From an uncultured bacterium (lineage in GTDB: Bacteria > Actinomycetota > Actinomycetes > S36-B12), in assembly GCA_903909555.1 (NCBI GenBank), contig CAIVWG010000011.1, positions 1 to 42,885 on the forward strand: a DNA stretch of 42,885 nt, in the 5' to 3' direction. The position numbers and the translations under genes were made by a program. Of the stretch, positions 30,444-37,663 are shown piece after piece. Each line of letters opens with the position of its first letter. Position 1 is the first letter of the stretch. The notes under the pieces are model-generated. The model was not told where the DNA came from and ran no database searches. It was given only the letters and a program-made list of their open reading frames with translations.

Positions 30444-31586
30444 TCAGGAGCCGCGGTGGACGAGCTCCACCGCATCGGCCAGCGCTTCCGGGAAGCGCGA
30501 CGAGTTGCCGAGATAGCCGGCGAGCAGGGCGGCATCGCCGGTGCAGGCGTGCACGACGCCCAGCAGGGCGCCGCGACGGCTGGCCTCGCCGACGTGGCCG
30601 AGCCTGCCGGCGGCAGCCTGGCGAACCGCGTCACCCGACGCGCCGGCGCGGGCACGCTGCCACACCCGGCCGAGAGCGCCGTCGACGCTCGTCGACCAGC
30701 CGGAGAGCTGCGGTGGCACCAGCGGGACCGACGAGCGCATCGCGAGCACGCGGTGGACATCCGATCCCAGTCGCCACACCCCGAAGGCGGGCTCCAGCGT
30801 CGAGGGTCCCGCGGGCACCGCCTCGAGGAGCAACTGGTCACGCGTGCTTCCCCCGCGCCCGAGCAGGACCATCGCGCGGCCGTGCTCGTCGGCGAACGCA
30901 TCGGCGACGCGGTAGCTCGACAGGAGCATGGCTTCGGGCTCGCTCAGGCTCTCCCGGTACAGCGACATCTCGCGCTCCGGATCCTCCGGTGCCACGCGGA
31001 TCACCGTGGTGCCGTTCGCATCCGAGGCCCAACGGGCCGCGACGCGACCGCGTCGGATGCGCCCATCCCGGATGAGGAGGTCCACGGCCCGGGTGCAGCT
31101 CACGCCGGGATCGCGCCGATCCCCCAGGCCGAGTGCCCGGCGCAGGCCCTCGGGGCGGCGTGCGTAGAGGGGCCGTCGCGCGAGGGATCGCACGGCGTCG
31201 CGGTAGGCCTCCCCGACCCCTCGGGCGATCTCGCGTCGCCGGCGGGGCTTGGTCCCCTGCGCCAGGCGCAGCGCGAGGCCGATGACGTCGTACTCCCAGG
31301 GACCCGGAAGGGCATTGTCGACATCGAGGACGTCCAGCGGGCACCCGGCCATCTCCGGGTCGCGGACGACGCCCATCGGCGCATCTCCGACGCACGCGAC
31401 GACGATGCCGGTGCGCGGCAACGCCGCGATGGCGGTCGCCAGGTCGTCCGCCGACGACGGCGGGCCGAGTTCGAAATCCAGGGCGGCGTCGAACGGCACG
31501 GCCCGTCGAAGGGCGCGACCCTCATCCCGCCGATCCCCTGCCGAATCCGCAGGCTGCGGGTCGGCGTACTCGCGCCAGCGACTCAC
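30444..31586 (-). CDS. DUF2252-like protein
   Basis: TGIVVACVGDAPMGVVRDPEMAGCPLDVLDVDNALPGPWEYDVIGLALRL; GTG start at 31586 overlapping upstream gene stop. Confidence 0.7.
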   Translation of the reverse strand: MSRWREYADPQPADSAGDRRDEGRALRRAVPFDAALDFELGPPSSADDLATAIAALPRTGIVVACVGDAPMGVVRDPEMAGCPLDVLDVDNALPGPWEYDVIGLALRLAQGTKPRRRREIARGVGEAYRDAVRSLARRPLYARRPEGLRRALGLGDRRDPGVSCTRAVDLLIRDGRIRRGRVAARWASDANGTTVIRVAPEDPEREMSLYRESLSEPEAMLLSSYRVADAFADEHGRAMVLLGRGGSTRDQLLLEAVPAGPSTLEPAFGVWRLGSDVHRVLAMRSSVPLVPPQLSGWSTSVDGALGRVWQRARAGASGDAVRQAAAGRLGHVGEASRRGALLGVVHACTGDAALLAGYLGNSSRFPEALADAVELVHRGS

Positions 31587-32455
31587 GCGGCGACTCCCAC
31601 CGAGGGCAGGGCGACGTGCAGCGCGACGGCGAAGGTGCGCGAGCGCAGGTACGTCGACTCCAGGTGTGCCGTGGCGAGACGTCCCACCCCCGCGACGGTC
31701 GACGCGACGGTGCGCGCATCGATCCCCGCGAGCACCGGCAGGAAGGCGTCGTGCGCCGCCGGGAATCTCGGGCCCAGGCCCCGGCCGAAGGGGACCGGGT
31801 CCAGCAGGTGCACGACGTTGAGCCAGTGACCCACCCGGGCGTAGGGGAACGCACCGGGCGCGAGCGCGTCGGCGACGGCGGAATGAGCCAGGGGGCTCCC
31901 GGCGGTCACGAGCATCCGAACCCGGACCCGGGGGTCGCCGAGCGCCTCGAGCGCCACCACGCTGCCGAGGGAGTGGCCGACGACGACCACGGGCGGGGGC
32001 GCGTCGAGGAGAGCCGCGATGACGCGCTCCTGCACGGCCGCTCGACGATCCGGGGAGTCGAGGTAGCGACCCACCTGGTCGAGCCCGAACAAAGGCGTGC
32101 GAAGCACCCGCGGGAGAGGCAGGCGATCGGGCAGATCCCCCGGGCGCGGGAGCCCGGCGGGCCAGGTCATGCCGCGCGGGACGGATTCGCCCGCCGCCTC
32201 CAGGGCATCGGCCAGGGCCCGCTGACGCTGGACATACGCCTGCCGATGGACATCGTGAGGAGGGCGCGGAGCAGGGGGCGACACCGGCAACGCGGGAGGA
32301 ACGTCGGCGACGGGCGCGTCGGCCAGGAGATCGGCGTAGTCCACCGCGATGCGCGCGGTGCCGGAGGGAAGGACGTCCCGGAGCGGCTCGTCCCAGCCCG
32401 GACGCGCGCCGCCCACGCCGTGCAGGTACACCAGCGAGCCGGCGGAAGGGGCCAT
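31583..32455 (-). CDS. Alpha/beta hydrolase
   Basis: SLVYLHGVGGARPGWDEPLR; VVVVGHSLGSVVALEAL. Confidence 0.82.
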   Translation of the reverse strand: MAPSAGSLVYLHGVGGARPGWDEPLRDVLPSGTARIAVDYADLLADAPVADVPPALPVSPPAPRPPHDVHRQAYVQRQRALADALEAAGESVPRGMTWPAGLPRPGDLPDRLPLPRVLRTPLFGLDQVGRYLDSPDRRAAVQERVIAALLDAPPPVVVVGHSLGSVVALEALGDPRVRVRMLVTAGSPLAHSAVADALAPGAFPYARVGHWLNVVHLLDPVPFGRGLGPRFPAAHDAFLPVLAGIDARTVASTVAGVGRLATAHLESTYLRSRTFAVALHVALPSVGVAA

Positions 32456-32601
32456 GGAACGAGGGTACGGCGCGCGCGCGGATCGTTGCCGGGTGCCGCC
32501 CGGCCGCGACCGTGACGGCAACGCGTGTGACGCATGCGACGCGGATGACCAGGTGATGACCGCTGGTGCCAAAGTGTGGTGAAATTCCACGGAAAAAGGG
32601 G

Positions 32602-32630
32602 TTGTGCAGCGCCGCAGTAAGGACTAGAAC
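32602..32630 (+). promoter_or_regulatory. Promoter candidate for the intergenic RNA
   Basis: ttgtgc - 17 nt - tagaac. Confidence 0.5.
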
Positions 32631-32636
32631 TAGGAG

Positions 32637-32908
32637 TGTTCCTCCGGCAACGGAGGGGACGGAAGAGAAGCGAAGGTTCCTGAACCGCAAGGGACAGGAG
32701 CGGGGCAACCCGAGGACCGTCGAGTGTCGACGGCGGTCAACCGGAGAGTCTCATCCGAGGGTCCACATGAGGATCCGACGGCGCCCCGGCAACGGGAGCG
32801 ACGGGACCCGGGAGACACCCCAGGGTTCATCCCTCACGGGAAGTCGGATTGATCGAGGACCCAGTGCGAGACCCCTGGAACTCATACTTCCAGGGGTCTC
32901 GTCCTTTT
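32637..32908 (+). ncRNA. Structured non-coding RNA candidate (possibly Ms1/6S-like or new)
   Basis: GCAA-capped hairpins at 32641-32656, 32701-32712 and 32785-32796; 7-bp hairpin at 32717-32733; ends at an intrinsic terminator; no convincing ORF. Confidence 0.65.
32867..32908 (+). terminator. Intrinsic terminator
   Basis: cgagacccctgga actcatact tccaggggtctcg followed by tcctttt; 13-bp perfect stem. Confidence 0.92.
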
Positions 32909-32989
32909 ATAGCCGCCCGCGAACCTCGCGACCGCACGCCACGCCGGGGCGTGAGTCCTTCTCCGCGCCGGGCCGCCGTCGCTGCCCGC

Positions 32990-33997
32990 TCAGCAGTTGC
33001 TGCCCGCTCCTGCGTAGTGAGCCTCGAGGCGGGCGAACCCCTCGTCGAGGCTCACCTCGGGGCACCAGTCCAGCGCCTGGCGCGTGGTCCGCTGGTCGAA
33101 CCAGTGCGCGGTGGCGAGCTGCTCGGCGAGGAACGCCGTGATGGGCGGCTCCCCCGCACGATCGGTGCGCTCCCAGACCGACTCCAGGGCGAGTCCCGCC
33201 GCGCGGGCCACCGGATAGGGGACGTGACGCCGAGGCTCCGGGGCGCCCGCCGCGCGTGCGATGCGGGTGAGCATCTCCGTCACCGTCCGCGGTTCTCCGT
33301 TGGACACGACGAACGCGCGTCCTCGCACGTCAGCGTCCCCTGCCCGCGCCAGAGCCGCCGCCAAAGCCGTGCCGGCATTGTCGATGTACGTCGTGTCGAT
33401 GAGCGCAGCACCCGACCCCACGATCACGAGACGGCCGGCACGCGCACGCGCGATGATGCGCGCCGTGAGCTGCGTGTCGCCGACGCCCCACACGAGGTGG
33501 GGGCGCACCGCCGCCACCGCGAATCCCTCCGCGTCGCAGTCCAGCGCCAGCGTCTCGGCCATCGCCTTGCTTCGCGAGTAGTTCCCTCGTGCGCGCTGCG
33601 CGTCCGCGGGCTCTGCAGCGGCTCCCACGAGTGCGCGTCCTGCATGGGCCACCGACGGGGATGACACGACGACGACCCGGCGTACTCCGCAGGCCCGCGC
33701 CGTGTCCAGGACCGTGCGCGTGCCGTGCACGTTCACGCGCTCGAACTCCGCCCACGGACCGGTGATCTCGACCCGCGCCGCGGCGTGGATCACGCCGTCC
33801 GCACCCGCCGCAGCGCGCGCGACGGCGTCCGCGTCGGTCACGTCTCCCCGGACCACCTCGACCCCCAGGTCGCTCATCCAGGGGGGCGCCTCGCCTCTCT
33901 GCAGGGACACCACGTGGTCGCCCTGTGCGCGCAAGGCGCGCACGGCGGCGGAGCCGACCACGCCCGTGCCGCCGGTCACGACGATGCGATCACCCAT
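32990..33997 (-). CDS. oleD: OleD-like NAD(P)-dependent beta-keto acid reductase (epimerase-type SDR)
   Basis: IVVTGGTGVVGSAAVRALRAQG; NYSRSKAMAE; 3' of oleA-oleBC. Confidence 0.85.
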   Translation of the reverse strand: MGDRIVVTGGTGVVGSAAVRALRAQGDHVVSLQRGEAPPWMSDLGVEVVRGDVTDADAVARAAAGADGVIHAAARVEITGPWAEFERVNVHGTRTVLDTARACGVRRVVVVSSPSVAHAGRALVGAAAEPADAQRARGNYSRSKAMAETLALDCDAEGFAVAAVRPHLVWGVGDTQLTARIIARARAGRLVIVGSGAALIDTTYIDNAGTALAAALARAGDADVRGRAFVVSNGEPRTVTEMLTRIARAAGAPEPRRHVPYPVARAAGLALESVWERTDRAGEPPITAFLAEQLATAHWFDQRTTRQALDWCPEVSLDEGFARLEAHYAGAGSNC

Positions 33998-36644
33998 CGG
34001 CCACCTCGAGGTCGCCGGCAAGCAGGCGCGAGGCGTCCCGCGCCACCGCGGCCCGGTCGATCTTGGACCGATGCCGGATATCCACGGGGAGCGCAGCCGT
34101 GCGCAGGACCGCCGCCACGTCAACCCCGCACTCGCGGAGCACGGCGCGGCGGACGCCGATGGTCGTGTCGATGTCGACGAGCTCCAGGCCGCGCGCATCG
34201 CCCTCCTCGAGCACCACGACCACGGACTGGGTCCCGCGTGGCCCGACGCCCACGCACGCCGCCCGCGCTACGCCGCTCACCGCCTGGGCGACCATCTCGG
34301 GCCCCACCGGGGTGACCGCGCCGCGCGGCGTCGCGATGACATGCGCCAGGCGCCCCTCGACCCACAGCCGCCCCTCGCCGTCGAGGTGCCCCACGTCGGC
34401 GGTGCGGTGCCATCCGGGCGGGGAGTCCGCGTGGGCCTGCGTCGCCCAGCGGCGGTCGTAGCGCGACCTCATCCACGCGCAGCGCACGACGATCTCCCCG
34501 GTGACCCCGGCGGCGGAGACCAGCTCCTCCTCCGATGCCGCGGGTGCGGGGCGACCGATCGAGTCCAGGGGCGCGATGGCCACGTCGACGCCCGCCAGAG
34601 GGCGTCCCACGAGGACGCCGTCGGAGCTCTGCGCGCCCAGGAGTTCCTCCAGCCGGACCTCGGTGAGGGGGAGAGCCTCCGTCATGCCGTAGGGAGTCGC
34701 GATGACGGCCTCGGGCATCACCTCCTGCGCGCGCGCGAGCAGGTCGGCGGGCACGGGCGCACCCGCGACCAGCAGGAGCCTGAGTCGCTCGAGGGCTGCG
34801 CGCTCGTCGGGACCGGCGCTCCCCGCGGTGTCGAGGATCGCGCGCAGGGCCGTCGGCGACGTCCACATGAGGACTCCCCCCGAACTGCCCTCGCGCGGGC
34901 CGACCGCCGCCGCAGCGCGTCCCGCCGTGCTCGCGTTGAGCGTGGAGGCGTCGGTGAGGTCCATGTCGGGGATCGCCGAGGCGATGCCGAGCGCGGGACC
35001 GAGGAGGGCCCACGGCGGGAACGCCGCCACGAGGGCATCGGCCCGCCCTGAGGTCCCGTCCGAGATCCCATACGCCGCGCGCAGTGCGTCGCGCAACGCG
35101 CACAGGCGCTCATGTGTGTAGACGACCCCCTTCGGCGGCCCCGTGGCGCCGGACGTGAAGGCGATGACCGCGTCGGACGTCGGGAGCGACGGGAGGCCGC
35201 GCGCGTCGTCCCCCAGTTCGCGGCCGACGCGGGCGACCTCGGCCAGCGTGACGTCAGCTCCCGGCACCCGCCGGGCCCCGACGACGACATGACGGCCCGG
35301 GATCGCGATCGTGCGCGCCAGTGCGATGCCCGCGGGGATTCCCACCACGTGGTCCGGAGTCGCGGACCGCAAGGCACGGCGCATCCCGCGGACGCCGAGG
35401 CCCGCATCCGCGGCCACGACGACCGCGCCCATGGCCCACGCGGCGTACACGGTCGCGACCAGGTCCGGGCCCGGGGGCACGAGCATGGCGATGCGATCGC
35501 CGGGGCGCACGCCCAACTCGGTCAGGCCGGCGGCGATCTCGCGGGTCCGGCGCGCCAGGAGCGACCAGCTCACGCTGCGTCCCGCGCGCAGGTCCGCGAT
35601 CGCGACGCCGGGGTCGTCGGCGCGCGACTCGAGGGCCGCGCCGATGGGGCGCGTCACCGGGACGGCGCTTCCCTCGCGCGGCGCGGATGACGCCACGCGC
35701 GCGCGACTCCCCACGATCTCGATCCACCGCACGATGTCGTCGACGCAAGCCTGCGCGTCCTCCGTGACGAGATGCCGGGCGCGCTCGTAGCGATGGACAT
35801 CGGCGTGCGGCATGCGCTGGAGCAGGTCGCGAAGGTAGCGGTCGGAGAAGACCGGATCATCGGATCCCCAGGCGAGGAGGACCGGGGTGTCGCCGAGCGC
35901 GCGCACCCCTTCGGCGATCGCATCGAGCGCCGCGGCGCTGGGGTGGTCGTCCTCCAGCGGGATGTCCGCCACGAAGTCCCGTACGGCGACGCGCGACGCG
36001 GCGTCGCCGTACGGCGCGGCGAACGCTGCGGCCACGGTCGGATCCATGGGGCGCAGCGCGCGGAGGGACGGGCGAGACAGGGCGGTCGTGCCGCGCACGA
36101 AGGTCCCTGTCTGCTCGGTGACGGCGCGCAGGATCGGCTTCGAGCGCGCGAGTCGGATCAGGGTCGGAGCCGGGGCCCCCTCGGGCTGGTGGACGGCGGT
36201 GTTAGTGAGGACCACGCCGCGCACCTGGTCCCGATGGCCCAGAACCCATCCGAGGGAGATCGGGCCACCCCAGTCGTGGGCGACCGTGACCACCGGGCCC
36301 CGCACCTCGAGCACGTCGGTGAGGGCGCCGAGGTCGGCGACACGCTGCGCGAGTCGGCGCGGCCGCGCGTCGCCGAGTCGCTCGGAGTAGCCCATGCCCG
36401 CCTGGTCGGGGGCGATCACCCTCCACGTGGGCGGAGCCGTCGCGAGCAGCCGACGCCACAGGTAGGACCAGGTGGGATTCCCGTGGACGGCGATGACCGT
36501 GAGTTCGGGAACGCCGGTGGCGGGCCGCTCGAGCACGTGCCACGTGCCCGCTCCGGGGACCTCGACGAGCCGGGACCACTCCGGCGCGAGGCCGGGCAGG
36601 TCCGGGGGCGGGATACGGGCGGGTCTCGTCGGACCCGCGCTCAC
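33990..36644 (-). CDS. oleBC: OleBC fusion: haloalkane-dehalogenase-like hydrolase (OleB) + AMP-ligase-like beta-lactone synthetase (OleC)
   Basis: 884 aa from GTG 36644; VAHDWGGPISLGWV nucleophile elbow; AFTSGATGPPKGVVYTHE adenylation motif; overlaps the oleA stop. Confidence 0.88.
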   Translation of the reverse strand: MSAGPTRPARIPPPDLPGLAPEWSRLVEVPGAGTWHVLERPATGVPELTVIAVHGNPTWSYLWRRLLATAPPTWRVIAPDQAGMGYSERLGDARPRRLAQRVADLGALTDVLEVRGPVVTVAHDWGGPISLGWVLGHRDQVRGVVLTNTAVHQPEGAPAPTLIRLARSKPILRAVTEQTGTFVRGTTALSRPSLRALRPMDPTVAAAFAAPYGDAASRVAVRDFVADIPLEDDHPSAAALDAIAEGVRALGDTPVLLAWGSDDPVFSDRYLRDLLQRMPHADVHRYERARHLVTEDAQACVDDIVRWIEIVGSRARVASSAPREGSAVPVTRPIGAALESRADDPGVAIADLRAGRSVSWSLLARRTREIAAGLTELGVRPGDRIAMLVPPGPDLVATVYAAWAMGAVVVAADAGLGVRGMRRALRSATPDHVVGIPAGIALARTIAIPGRHVVVGARRVPGADVTLAEVARVGRELGDDARGLPSLPTSDAVIAFTSGATGPPKGVVYTHERLCALRDALRAAYGISDGTSGRADALVAAFPPWALLGPALGIASAIPDMDLTDASTLNASTAGRAAAAVGPREGSSGGVLMWTSPTALRAILDTAGSAGPDERAALERLRLLLVAGAPVPADLLARAQEVMPEAVIATPYGMTEALPLTEVRLEELLGAQSSDGVLVGRPLAGVDVAIAPLDSIGRPAPAASEEELVSAAGVTGEIVVRCAWMRSRYDRRWATQAHADSPPGWHRTADVGHLDGEGRLWVEGRLAHVIATPRGAVTPVGPEMVAQAVSGVARAACVGVGPRGTQSVVVVLEEGDARGLELVDIDTTIGVRRAVLRECGVDVAAVLRTAALPVDIRHRSKIDRAAVARDASRLLAGDLEVADG

Positions 36645-37663
36645 CAGGCGATCTCGATGACGGCGGAGTTGAGACCCGAGCCGATGCCGAGGCAGCCGAC
36701 TCGGTCGCCCTGGCGCAGCTCCGATGCCTGCTGCGCCAGCGTGAACGGGATCGAGGCGGGGCCGATGTTGCCCCGCGTCGGGAAGGTCGTGGGCACGCGA
36801 GCCCCGTCGATGCCCAGGACCGAGGTCACCGCCTCGGTGTGCACCTTGGACACCTGGTGGATGACGTAGCAGTCGAGGTCGTCCCAGTCGAACTGCTCCC
36901 GGGCCTCGGTCCACGTCTCCGCCGAGAGCTCCATGGCGGCCTCGAGTAGGGCCCGCGAGTCGGTGCGCATGCCGTTCATGTCGCCGACGCAGATGTCGTG
37001 ATGCTGGGTCGCCGCACGTCCGACGCCGCCCACGAAGCGGTGTCCCTCCGGATGCTCGCTCGCGCGCCCGAGCACCATGGCGGCGCCGCCCGAGCCGAGC
37101 GTGAGCGAGGCGAAGTTGGAGAACATGTCGGCCACGGTGGTGTCGGGCCCCTGGAGGCGGGCGATGGTGCGCTCCTGGAGCTCGCGGGGGCCCTCGCCGT
37201 CGACGATGATGGCGTAGTCGATCTGGCCGGAGTCGATCATGACGCCGGCGAGCTGCATGCCGTTGACGAACCCGAGGCAGGCATTCGACAGGTCGAAGTT
37301 GAGGCAGTGGGTCGGCAGGCCTAGCTGGTGGTGAACGTCGACCGCCGCGGACGGCTCGAGGTTCGCACGCGACACCGACGTGTCGACGAGCAGGCCGATG
37401 CGCCCGGGATCGACTCCCGAGTCGGCGATGGCCTTGGCGCCCGCCATCGCTGCGGCGTCGGCGAAGCTGACGTCCTCGGGCCACCAGCGGCGCTCGCGGA
37501 TGCCGGCGAGCCCCTCGAGAAGGCCGGGCCGGATGTCCAGGCGCGCGTAGGTGTCCGCGAGTGCCTCGTCGAACTCGGCCGACGTCACGACGATGGGCGC
37601 GTCGGCGACCGAGACCGAGAGCACCGCGGTGTCCCGGAAGCGAAAGACGGCGTTGCCGCTCAT
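36641..37663 (-). CDS. oleA: OleA-like thiolase (head-to-head condensing enzyme)
   Basis: 340 aa; catalytic-Cys region FDLSNACLGFVNGMQLAG; HQVSKVHTEAVTSVLG; GNIGPASIPFTL. Confidence 0.88.
   Translation of the reverse strand: MSGNAVFRFRDTAVLSVSVADAPIVVTSAEFDEALADTYARLDIRPGLLEGLAGIRERRWWPEDVSFADAAAMAGAKAIADSGVDPGRIGLLVDTSVSRANLEPSAAVDVHHQLGLPTHCLNFDLSNACLGFVNGMQLAGVMIDSGQIDYAIIVDGEGPRELQERTIARLQGPDTTVADMFSNFASLTLGSGGAAMVLGRASEHPEGHRFVGGVGRAATQHHDICVGDMNGMRTDSRALLEAAMELSAETWTEAREQFDWDDLDCYVIHQVSKVHTEAVTSVLGIDGARVPTTFPTRGNIGPASIPFTLAQQASELRQGDRVGCLGIGSGLNSAVIEIAW

Follow-up and report, generated by a model that had tools for sequence, protein, structure and literature searches.

The window, a stretch of 42,885 nucleotides (nt) from an uncultured actinobacterium, contains at positions 32602 to 32908 of the plus strand a predicted stand-alone gene for a structured RNA of about 270 nt, with its own putative promoter and intrinsic terminator. 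The RNA itself is predicted to extend from 32637, an estimated start, to the end of the terminator tail at 32908. It is flanked by two open reading frames (ORFs) on the minus strand: an oleD-like dehydrogenase gene that is convergent with the RNA (32990 to 33922; Pfam 3Beta_HSD/Epimerase) and a divergent hydrolase-like ORF (31583 to 32455), for which no Pfam match was obtained and which also adjoins the RNA in other genus-level copies, its conservation beside the RNA being confined to close relatives. In the window, oleD lies beside an OleB-OleC-like fusion ORF composed of haloalkane-dehalogenase-like and AMP-ligase-like parts, together an olefin-synthesis-type cluster (32990 to 37484, minus strand). 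An initial annotation had proposed a folded, stand-alone small RNA of about 270 nt with its own promoter and terminator between these genes; conservation, promoter, and covariation support the proposal, and all sequence elements that it named are found where it had placed them. The observation is correct but understates what is present, and the interpretation given with it is, as a whole, partly supported.

The predicted promoter consists of the −35 hexamer TTGTGC (32602 to 32607), a 17-nt spacer, and TAGAAC (32625 to 32630) within the −10 element TAGAACT (32625 to 32631), preceded by an A-rich stretch (32562 to 32601, AAATTCC..GGAAAAAGGGG) that might function like an UP element. Since a generic sigma-70 scan of the window region did not find this promoter, it was judged by its conservation in relatives, which backs the ttgtgc-17 nt-tagaac arrangement of the initial annotation. 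The family promoter comprises an A-tract, CTTG[CT]G (the form of most −35 elements in relatives), a spacer of 17 or 18 nt, and TA[GC]AA[AC]T, the −10 consensus of 73 relatives; TTG occurs in 73 of 73 scored promoters, a score that itself requires TTG. The score threshold was reached in 73 of 82 copies versus 3 of 82 on the reverse strand, and A/T tracts were found in the 40 nt preceding the −35 element in nearly all relatives. Such a strong-looking A-tract promoter suggests that the RNA is abundant. Some copies in multicopy genomes have a degenerate promoter.

The minimum free energy (MFE) of the window RNA was −147.3 kcal/mol (z = −5.95), and none of 200 dinucleotide shuffles was as low; for the full RNAs, the mean z value was −5.4, and −2.5 with the terminator removed. 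The predicted fold begins with a GNRA hairpin at the 5' end, continues with two domains that a kissing loop connects, and ends with the terminator hairpin, all on the plus strand. The 5' hairpin (32641 to 32656, CCTCCG-GCAA-CGGAGG) has a GCAA tetraloop, and its equivalent in relatives covaries (helix 1). Domain I (32660 to 32757) is closed in the MFE structure by pairing of 32660-32663 with 32754-32757, and its equivalent is closed by the covarying helix 2 of alignment A1 (see below). It contains a second GCAA hairpin (32701 to 32712, CGGG-GCAA-CCCG), visible in the sequence and in the MFE structure, and a hairpin (32715 to 32738) with the 8-nt loop AGUGUCGA (32723-32730), which is part of the MFE structure and covaries in relatives (helices 5 and 6). 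Domain II (32759 to 32862) is closed by the long-range pairing of GGGUCC (32759-32764) with GGACCC (32857-32862), which had been noticed before and forms in the MFE structure; its equivalent, helix 7, has both-side changes in five of six pairs. Within this domain, the MFE structure includes a third GCAA hairpin (32782 to 32800, with CCCG-GCAA-CGGG at 32785-32796 and the loop at 32789-32792), near-invariant across 13 close relatives, and a hairpin (32804 to 32828) with the loop AGACAC (32813-32818). The three GCAA hairpins listed in the initial annotation are thus present, and the number of GNRA hairpins exceeds chance, with 2.28 per RNA among 71 copies compared to 0.20 in shuffles (11-fold; the window copy has three). 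The letters of a hairpin assigned earlier to 32717-32733 are also present, but its register is better read with the 8-nt loop as in the MFE structure, because GUGUC in this loop (32724-32728) pairs with GACAC in the loop of the second hairpin (32814-32818), forming the two sides of the kissing loop.

To score the fold, 33 copies from the window's family were aligned (A1), and the RNAalifold fold was combined with the added loop-loop pairing. Both-side changes were observed in 51 of 79 pairs of the consensus fold, and the covariation score was 0.363, in comparison to 0.183 (standard deviation, 0.006) for shuffled alignments, none of which scored as high in 500 trials, and to ≤0.10 when the pairing partners were slid. 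The window's clade alone has 45 predicted pairs, with compensatory changes in 23. On A1, RNAalifold does not pair either kissing loop, whether or not the constraint is applied. The loop-loop complementarity covaries: it was higher within than between sequences (P = 2e-4, 33 distinct copies), with kissing pairs GUGUC/GACAC in the window, AUGCUG/CAGCAU in locus L012, and AAUGUUGU/ACAACAUU in locus L246. The same test gave P = 0.006 for 10 copies of the window's clade, where several misaligned windows weaken it, and P = 0.017 for five copies of family f7. A covariance model of domain II only, with the terminator excluded (R1), recovered held-out family copies at 1e-24 to 1e-4; within the window's clade it is weak, matching the window in the right place (32762-32863) at E = 0.6. 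Beyond family f1, R1 was significant in one f33 locus only (E = 4e-5, in the 5' part of that RNA); it was marginal in f14 and failed in f7. With respect to the conservation check suggested by the initial annotation, the RNA is kept far beyond close strains and covaries strongly.

The terminator is a stem-loop of 15 bp with the 7-nt loop CUCAUAC (32866 to 32902; loop, 32881-32887), followed by the tail CCTTTT (32903 to 32908), which is seen in the sequence; the intrinsic stem and its tail had been recognized earlier, but the stem had been given as 13 bp. The loop and the CCCCT/AGGGG part of the stem are conserved, and among relatives the loop reads CUCAUAC or CUCAUGC while adjacent stem pairs change together. 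Since the oleD-linked copy L036 has a different closing pair and still has CUCAUAC, it is the loop, and not the whole hairpin sequence, that is kept. The terminator hairpin is therefore predicted to present a nearly invariant U-turn loop. In the window (32905-32911) and in most family copies, TTTATAG or TTTATAC often follows the terminator tail.

A DNA search of 59 related genomes yielded matches in 16, the window's own genome included; most of these matches extended over the 3' half and the terminator. Further loci were gathered by a protein search with the neighboring oleD, in which the RNA was not used, and both sets show the same terminator. The terminator pattern CCCCTNNNACTCATRCTNNNAGGGG, searched with one mismatch allowed, was found in 68 of 168 genomes of the order, 59 of these belonging to the window's family (86 genomes sampled), and a looser terminator pattern was found in 31 of 396 genomes of the class, with carriers including families f11, f14, f19, f20, f26, f33, f37, and f41; the reversed-pattern control gave no hits in either search. 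The pattern was absent from the sampled genomes of two families resembling the Mycobacterium and Streptomyces groups. Outside the order, it was the terminator pattern itself that served to collect copies, and the loop conservation seen there partly reflects how they were chosen, a bias of which the oleD-linked set at the order level is free. The predicted RNA length was 185 to 322 nt, typically 240 to 270 nt, among 71 copies with a scored promoter, 26 homologs having been aligned. Viral contigs contained no exact terminator match and plasmids one chance match only, and a viral or plasmid origin was rejected.

All copies with oleD as a neighbor have it in convergent orientation to the RNA; roughly half of the copies in the family are located elsewhere. 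In other families, the neighbors are genes for a xanthine/uracil permease, GroEL, trigger factor (tig)/clpP, a LacI regulator, a NicO nickel transporter, or MenD. We rejected a link to the oleD pathway, since oleD adjoins the RNA within the window's family only, where many copies lie elsewhere. Some genomes carry two or three copies of the RNA. Because the neighbors are unrelated between families and because of these additional copies, we infer that the RNA acts in trans. Diverged multiple copies comprise L245 and L246 (genome G111), L189, L247, and L249 (G011), L156 (G004), and L220 (G007).

An alternative in which the locus is a 5' leader or an unannotated small protein gene could draw on a 191-amino-acid plus-strand ORF that overlaps the RNA, but the terminator would stop the transcript ahead of any downstream gene on the same strand, the adjacent oleD is convergent, and the structural covariation is strong. 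When all six frames were checked in 70 copies, each was open in just 13 to 25 (17 to 25 for each plus-strand frame), so that no conserved coding frame emerged; a conserved frame is what the initial annotation had named as speaking against an RNA gene. This reading was already disfavored, and we consider it hardly credible. A conserved promoter, a covarying fold, an intrinsic terminator, and no coding frame were found at this locus, as expected of an independent structured small RNA gene. As to its identity, the initial annotation had pointed to a resemblance to Ms1-type RNAs, and a diverged Ms1/6S-type RNA, binding RNA polymerase and replacing Ms1 in the window's order, would be similar in length, structured, and transcribed from an apparently strong promoter. 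Ms1 adjoins the gene for a HAD-IB hydrolase across actinobacteria (PMC9130861). Contig C226 of genome G000 carries the HAD/CpaE pair, with an ORF directly after the HAD gene and no intergenic room for an RNA, and a signature for Ms1 that we derived from canonical intergenic regions, CACCCACGYGN{52,82}ACGCYTGGTNACC (which misses mycobacterial Ms1), was found in neither G000 nor any other sampled genome of the order, in comparison to 37 of 396 genomes of the class. Size alone matches, however. The window gave no match to the Ms1 model (RF02566) at the gathering threshold or at E ≤ 10, while this model scores 296 bits at the canonical Ms1 locus of the Mycobacterium-like genome G213; the window RNA lies beside oleD and the hydrolase-like ORF and not at the HAD-IB (CpaE-adjacent) locus; R1 has no match at Ms1 loci; and instead of the one long hairpin of 6S-like RNAs, the predicted fold comprises two domains and a kissing loop. 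Both the Ms1 signature and the new RNA occur in four genomes, each from a different family (G171, G193, G212, and G246), and therefore the two are separate RNAs. We rejected homology to Ms1 and 6S on the grounds of Rfam, synteny, signature, and coexistence, and we regard even a diverged relationship as improbable. A search of the window and relatives from five families against 4,227 families of Rfam 15 gave chance-level matches only, and no earlier description of the RNA at 32602-32908 was found in the papers searched. We rate the RNA as a new family, a putative actinobacterial family absent from Rfam and distinct from Ms1, for which the mechanisms given below are proposals. Loci L105 (G036) and L109 (G038) belong to two further families of the order in which the pattern of the new RNA was not found; downstream of their HAD-IB gene, at the canonical locus, they have Ms1-like intergenic regions containing elements that resemble a promoter and a terminator.

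With moderate confidence, we favor a protein-bound global regulatory RNA, because searches for targets that could pair with the loop gave negative results. It would most likely act in the manner of 6S, Ms1, or CoRP, its folded body providing a stable scaffold and its terminator loop being recognized together with the CCCCU/AGGGG stem. The concentration of invariant bases in the terminator loop counts against this reading in that it is also expected of a base-pairing RNA, in which CUCAUAC would seed on mRNAs at GUAUGAG, such as where this spans a start codon, and block translation, while the RNA body would merely stabilize the loop. Base pairing was tested because CUCA in CUCAUAC matches YUNR, the U-turn motif by which antisense RNAs classically recognize their targets; the near invariance of the loop beside covarying stem pairs, also in L036 with its different closing pair, is likewise in its favor. 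Yet GGAG-N2-9-GTATGAG, in which GGAG resembles a ribosome-binding site, occurred 20 times in four genomes versus 15 times for the reversed-pattern control, with no gene shared, the 9-nt complement AGTATGAGT occurred in G003, G007, and G015 only within the RNA's own terminators, and the one other GTATGAG of the window is not at a plausible gene start. With no clear excess over the control, the start-codon antisense model was rejected; weaker, shorter, or G-U-rich pairing to mRNAs may occur, and base pairing as a whole seems to us rather unlikely. A third reading takes the terminator hairpin as a mimic of an anticodon arm (C-U-CAU-A-C) that titrates a protein reading CAU-tRNAs, e.g., methionyl-tRNA synthetase or TilS. 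The loop has 7 nt, with U at position 33 and a purine at position 37, and equals six of seven bases of the CAU tRNA loops of the same genomes (CTCATAA), a likeness that is suggestive at most; by our own estimate, a six-of-seven match to some tRNA loop is not very improbable by chance (about 5%). Position 38 differs in every case and the 15-bp stem is unlike a tRNA arm, making titration very improbable. Taken together, a new stand-alone RNA gene whose product is a protein-bound global regulatory RNA is our best joint explanation, to which we assign about even confidence.

In part of the range, the upstream region contains sites resembling DnaA boxes (TTGTCCACA, with at most one mismatch). In 21 copies outside the window's family, 53 such sites were found in 9.3 kb upstream of the RNA versus 2 in 42 kb elsewhere at the same loci, and most copies of families f7, f14, f19, and f37 have one box at −52 or −53 from the −35 element; in the remaining copies the sites are at background, and clusters are absent in the window's family. 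Loci L130-L136 and L160-L172, from families f7, f14, f19, f33, f37, f41, and others, have boxes about 30 to 240 nt upstream of the −35 element. The sequence of the sites suggests that, in several families, DnaA or another factor recognizing these sites would govern transcription, a control not seen in the window's family. Because the clusters suggested a location at oriC, this was considered and rejected: none of dnaA, dnaN, recF, gyrB, and rpmH turned up within about 1.5 kb in crude motif scans, and the neighbor genes that were identified are unrelated. As a speculative proposal to which we give little weight, the RNAs could form a widespread class that, over much of its range, is controlled through DnaA or DnaA boxes and yields an abundant ribonucleoprotein; this would couple a core machine, that of transcription or of translation initiation, to replication or the state of growth, with the CAU-anticodon-like terminator loop as the site of contact.

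Work on actinobacterial small RNAs has mostly dealt with Mycobacterium and Streptomyces, and to our knowledge, large structured RNAs other than the universal ones have rarely been described in actinobacteria. The predicted RNA would add one and, where genomes carry both, would be a second large stand-alone RNA beside Ms1, so that the separate roles of the two can be asked about there. Its conserved promoter, kissing-loop fold, and single nearly invariant loop offer clear experimental handles.

Among known RNAs, 6C RNA (RF01066) is likewise an actinobacterial hairpin RNA, but it has 75 nt and C-rich loops, unlike the loop CUCAUAC described here, and no 6C match was found in the window. 6S RNA (RF00013) shares the length class and presumed abundance, whereas it is a single rod with a central bubble, differing from two domains joined by a kissing loop, and no Rfam match links the two. 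Ms1 (MTS2823, scr3559; RF02566) has about 300 nt and its Streptomyces coelicolor counterpart about 230 nt (PMC9130861, PMC11077062); it is also a stand-alone structured actinobacterial RNA of 230 to 300 nt with its own promoter and terminator, from which the new RNA differs in covariance-model match, neighborhood, motifs, and its two-domain kissing-loop fold. CoRP, an RNA of 516 nt encoded among tRNA genes in Corynebacterium only (PMC11077062), differs in length and neighborhood according to its description; like the new RNA, it is structured, actinobacterial, and without sequence relationship to either Ms1 or 6S, and a global role is suspected for it.
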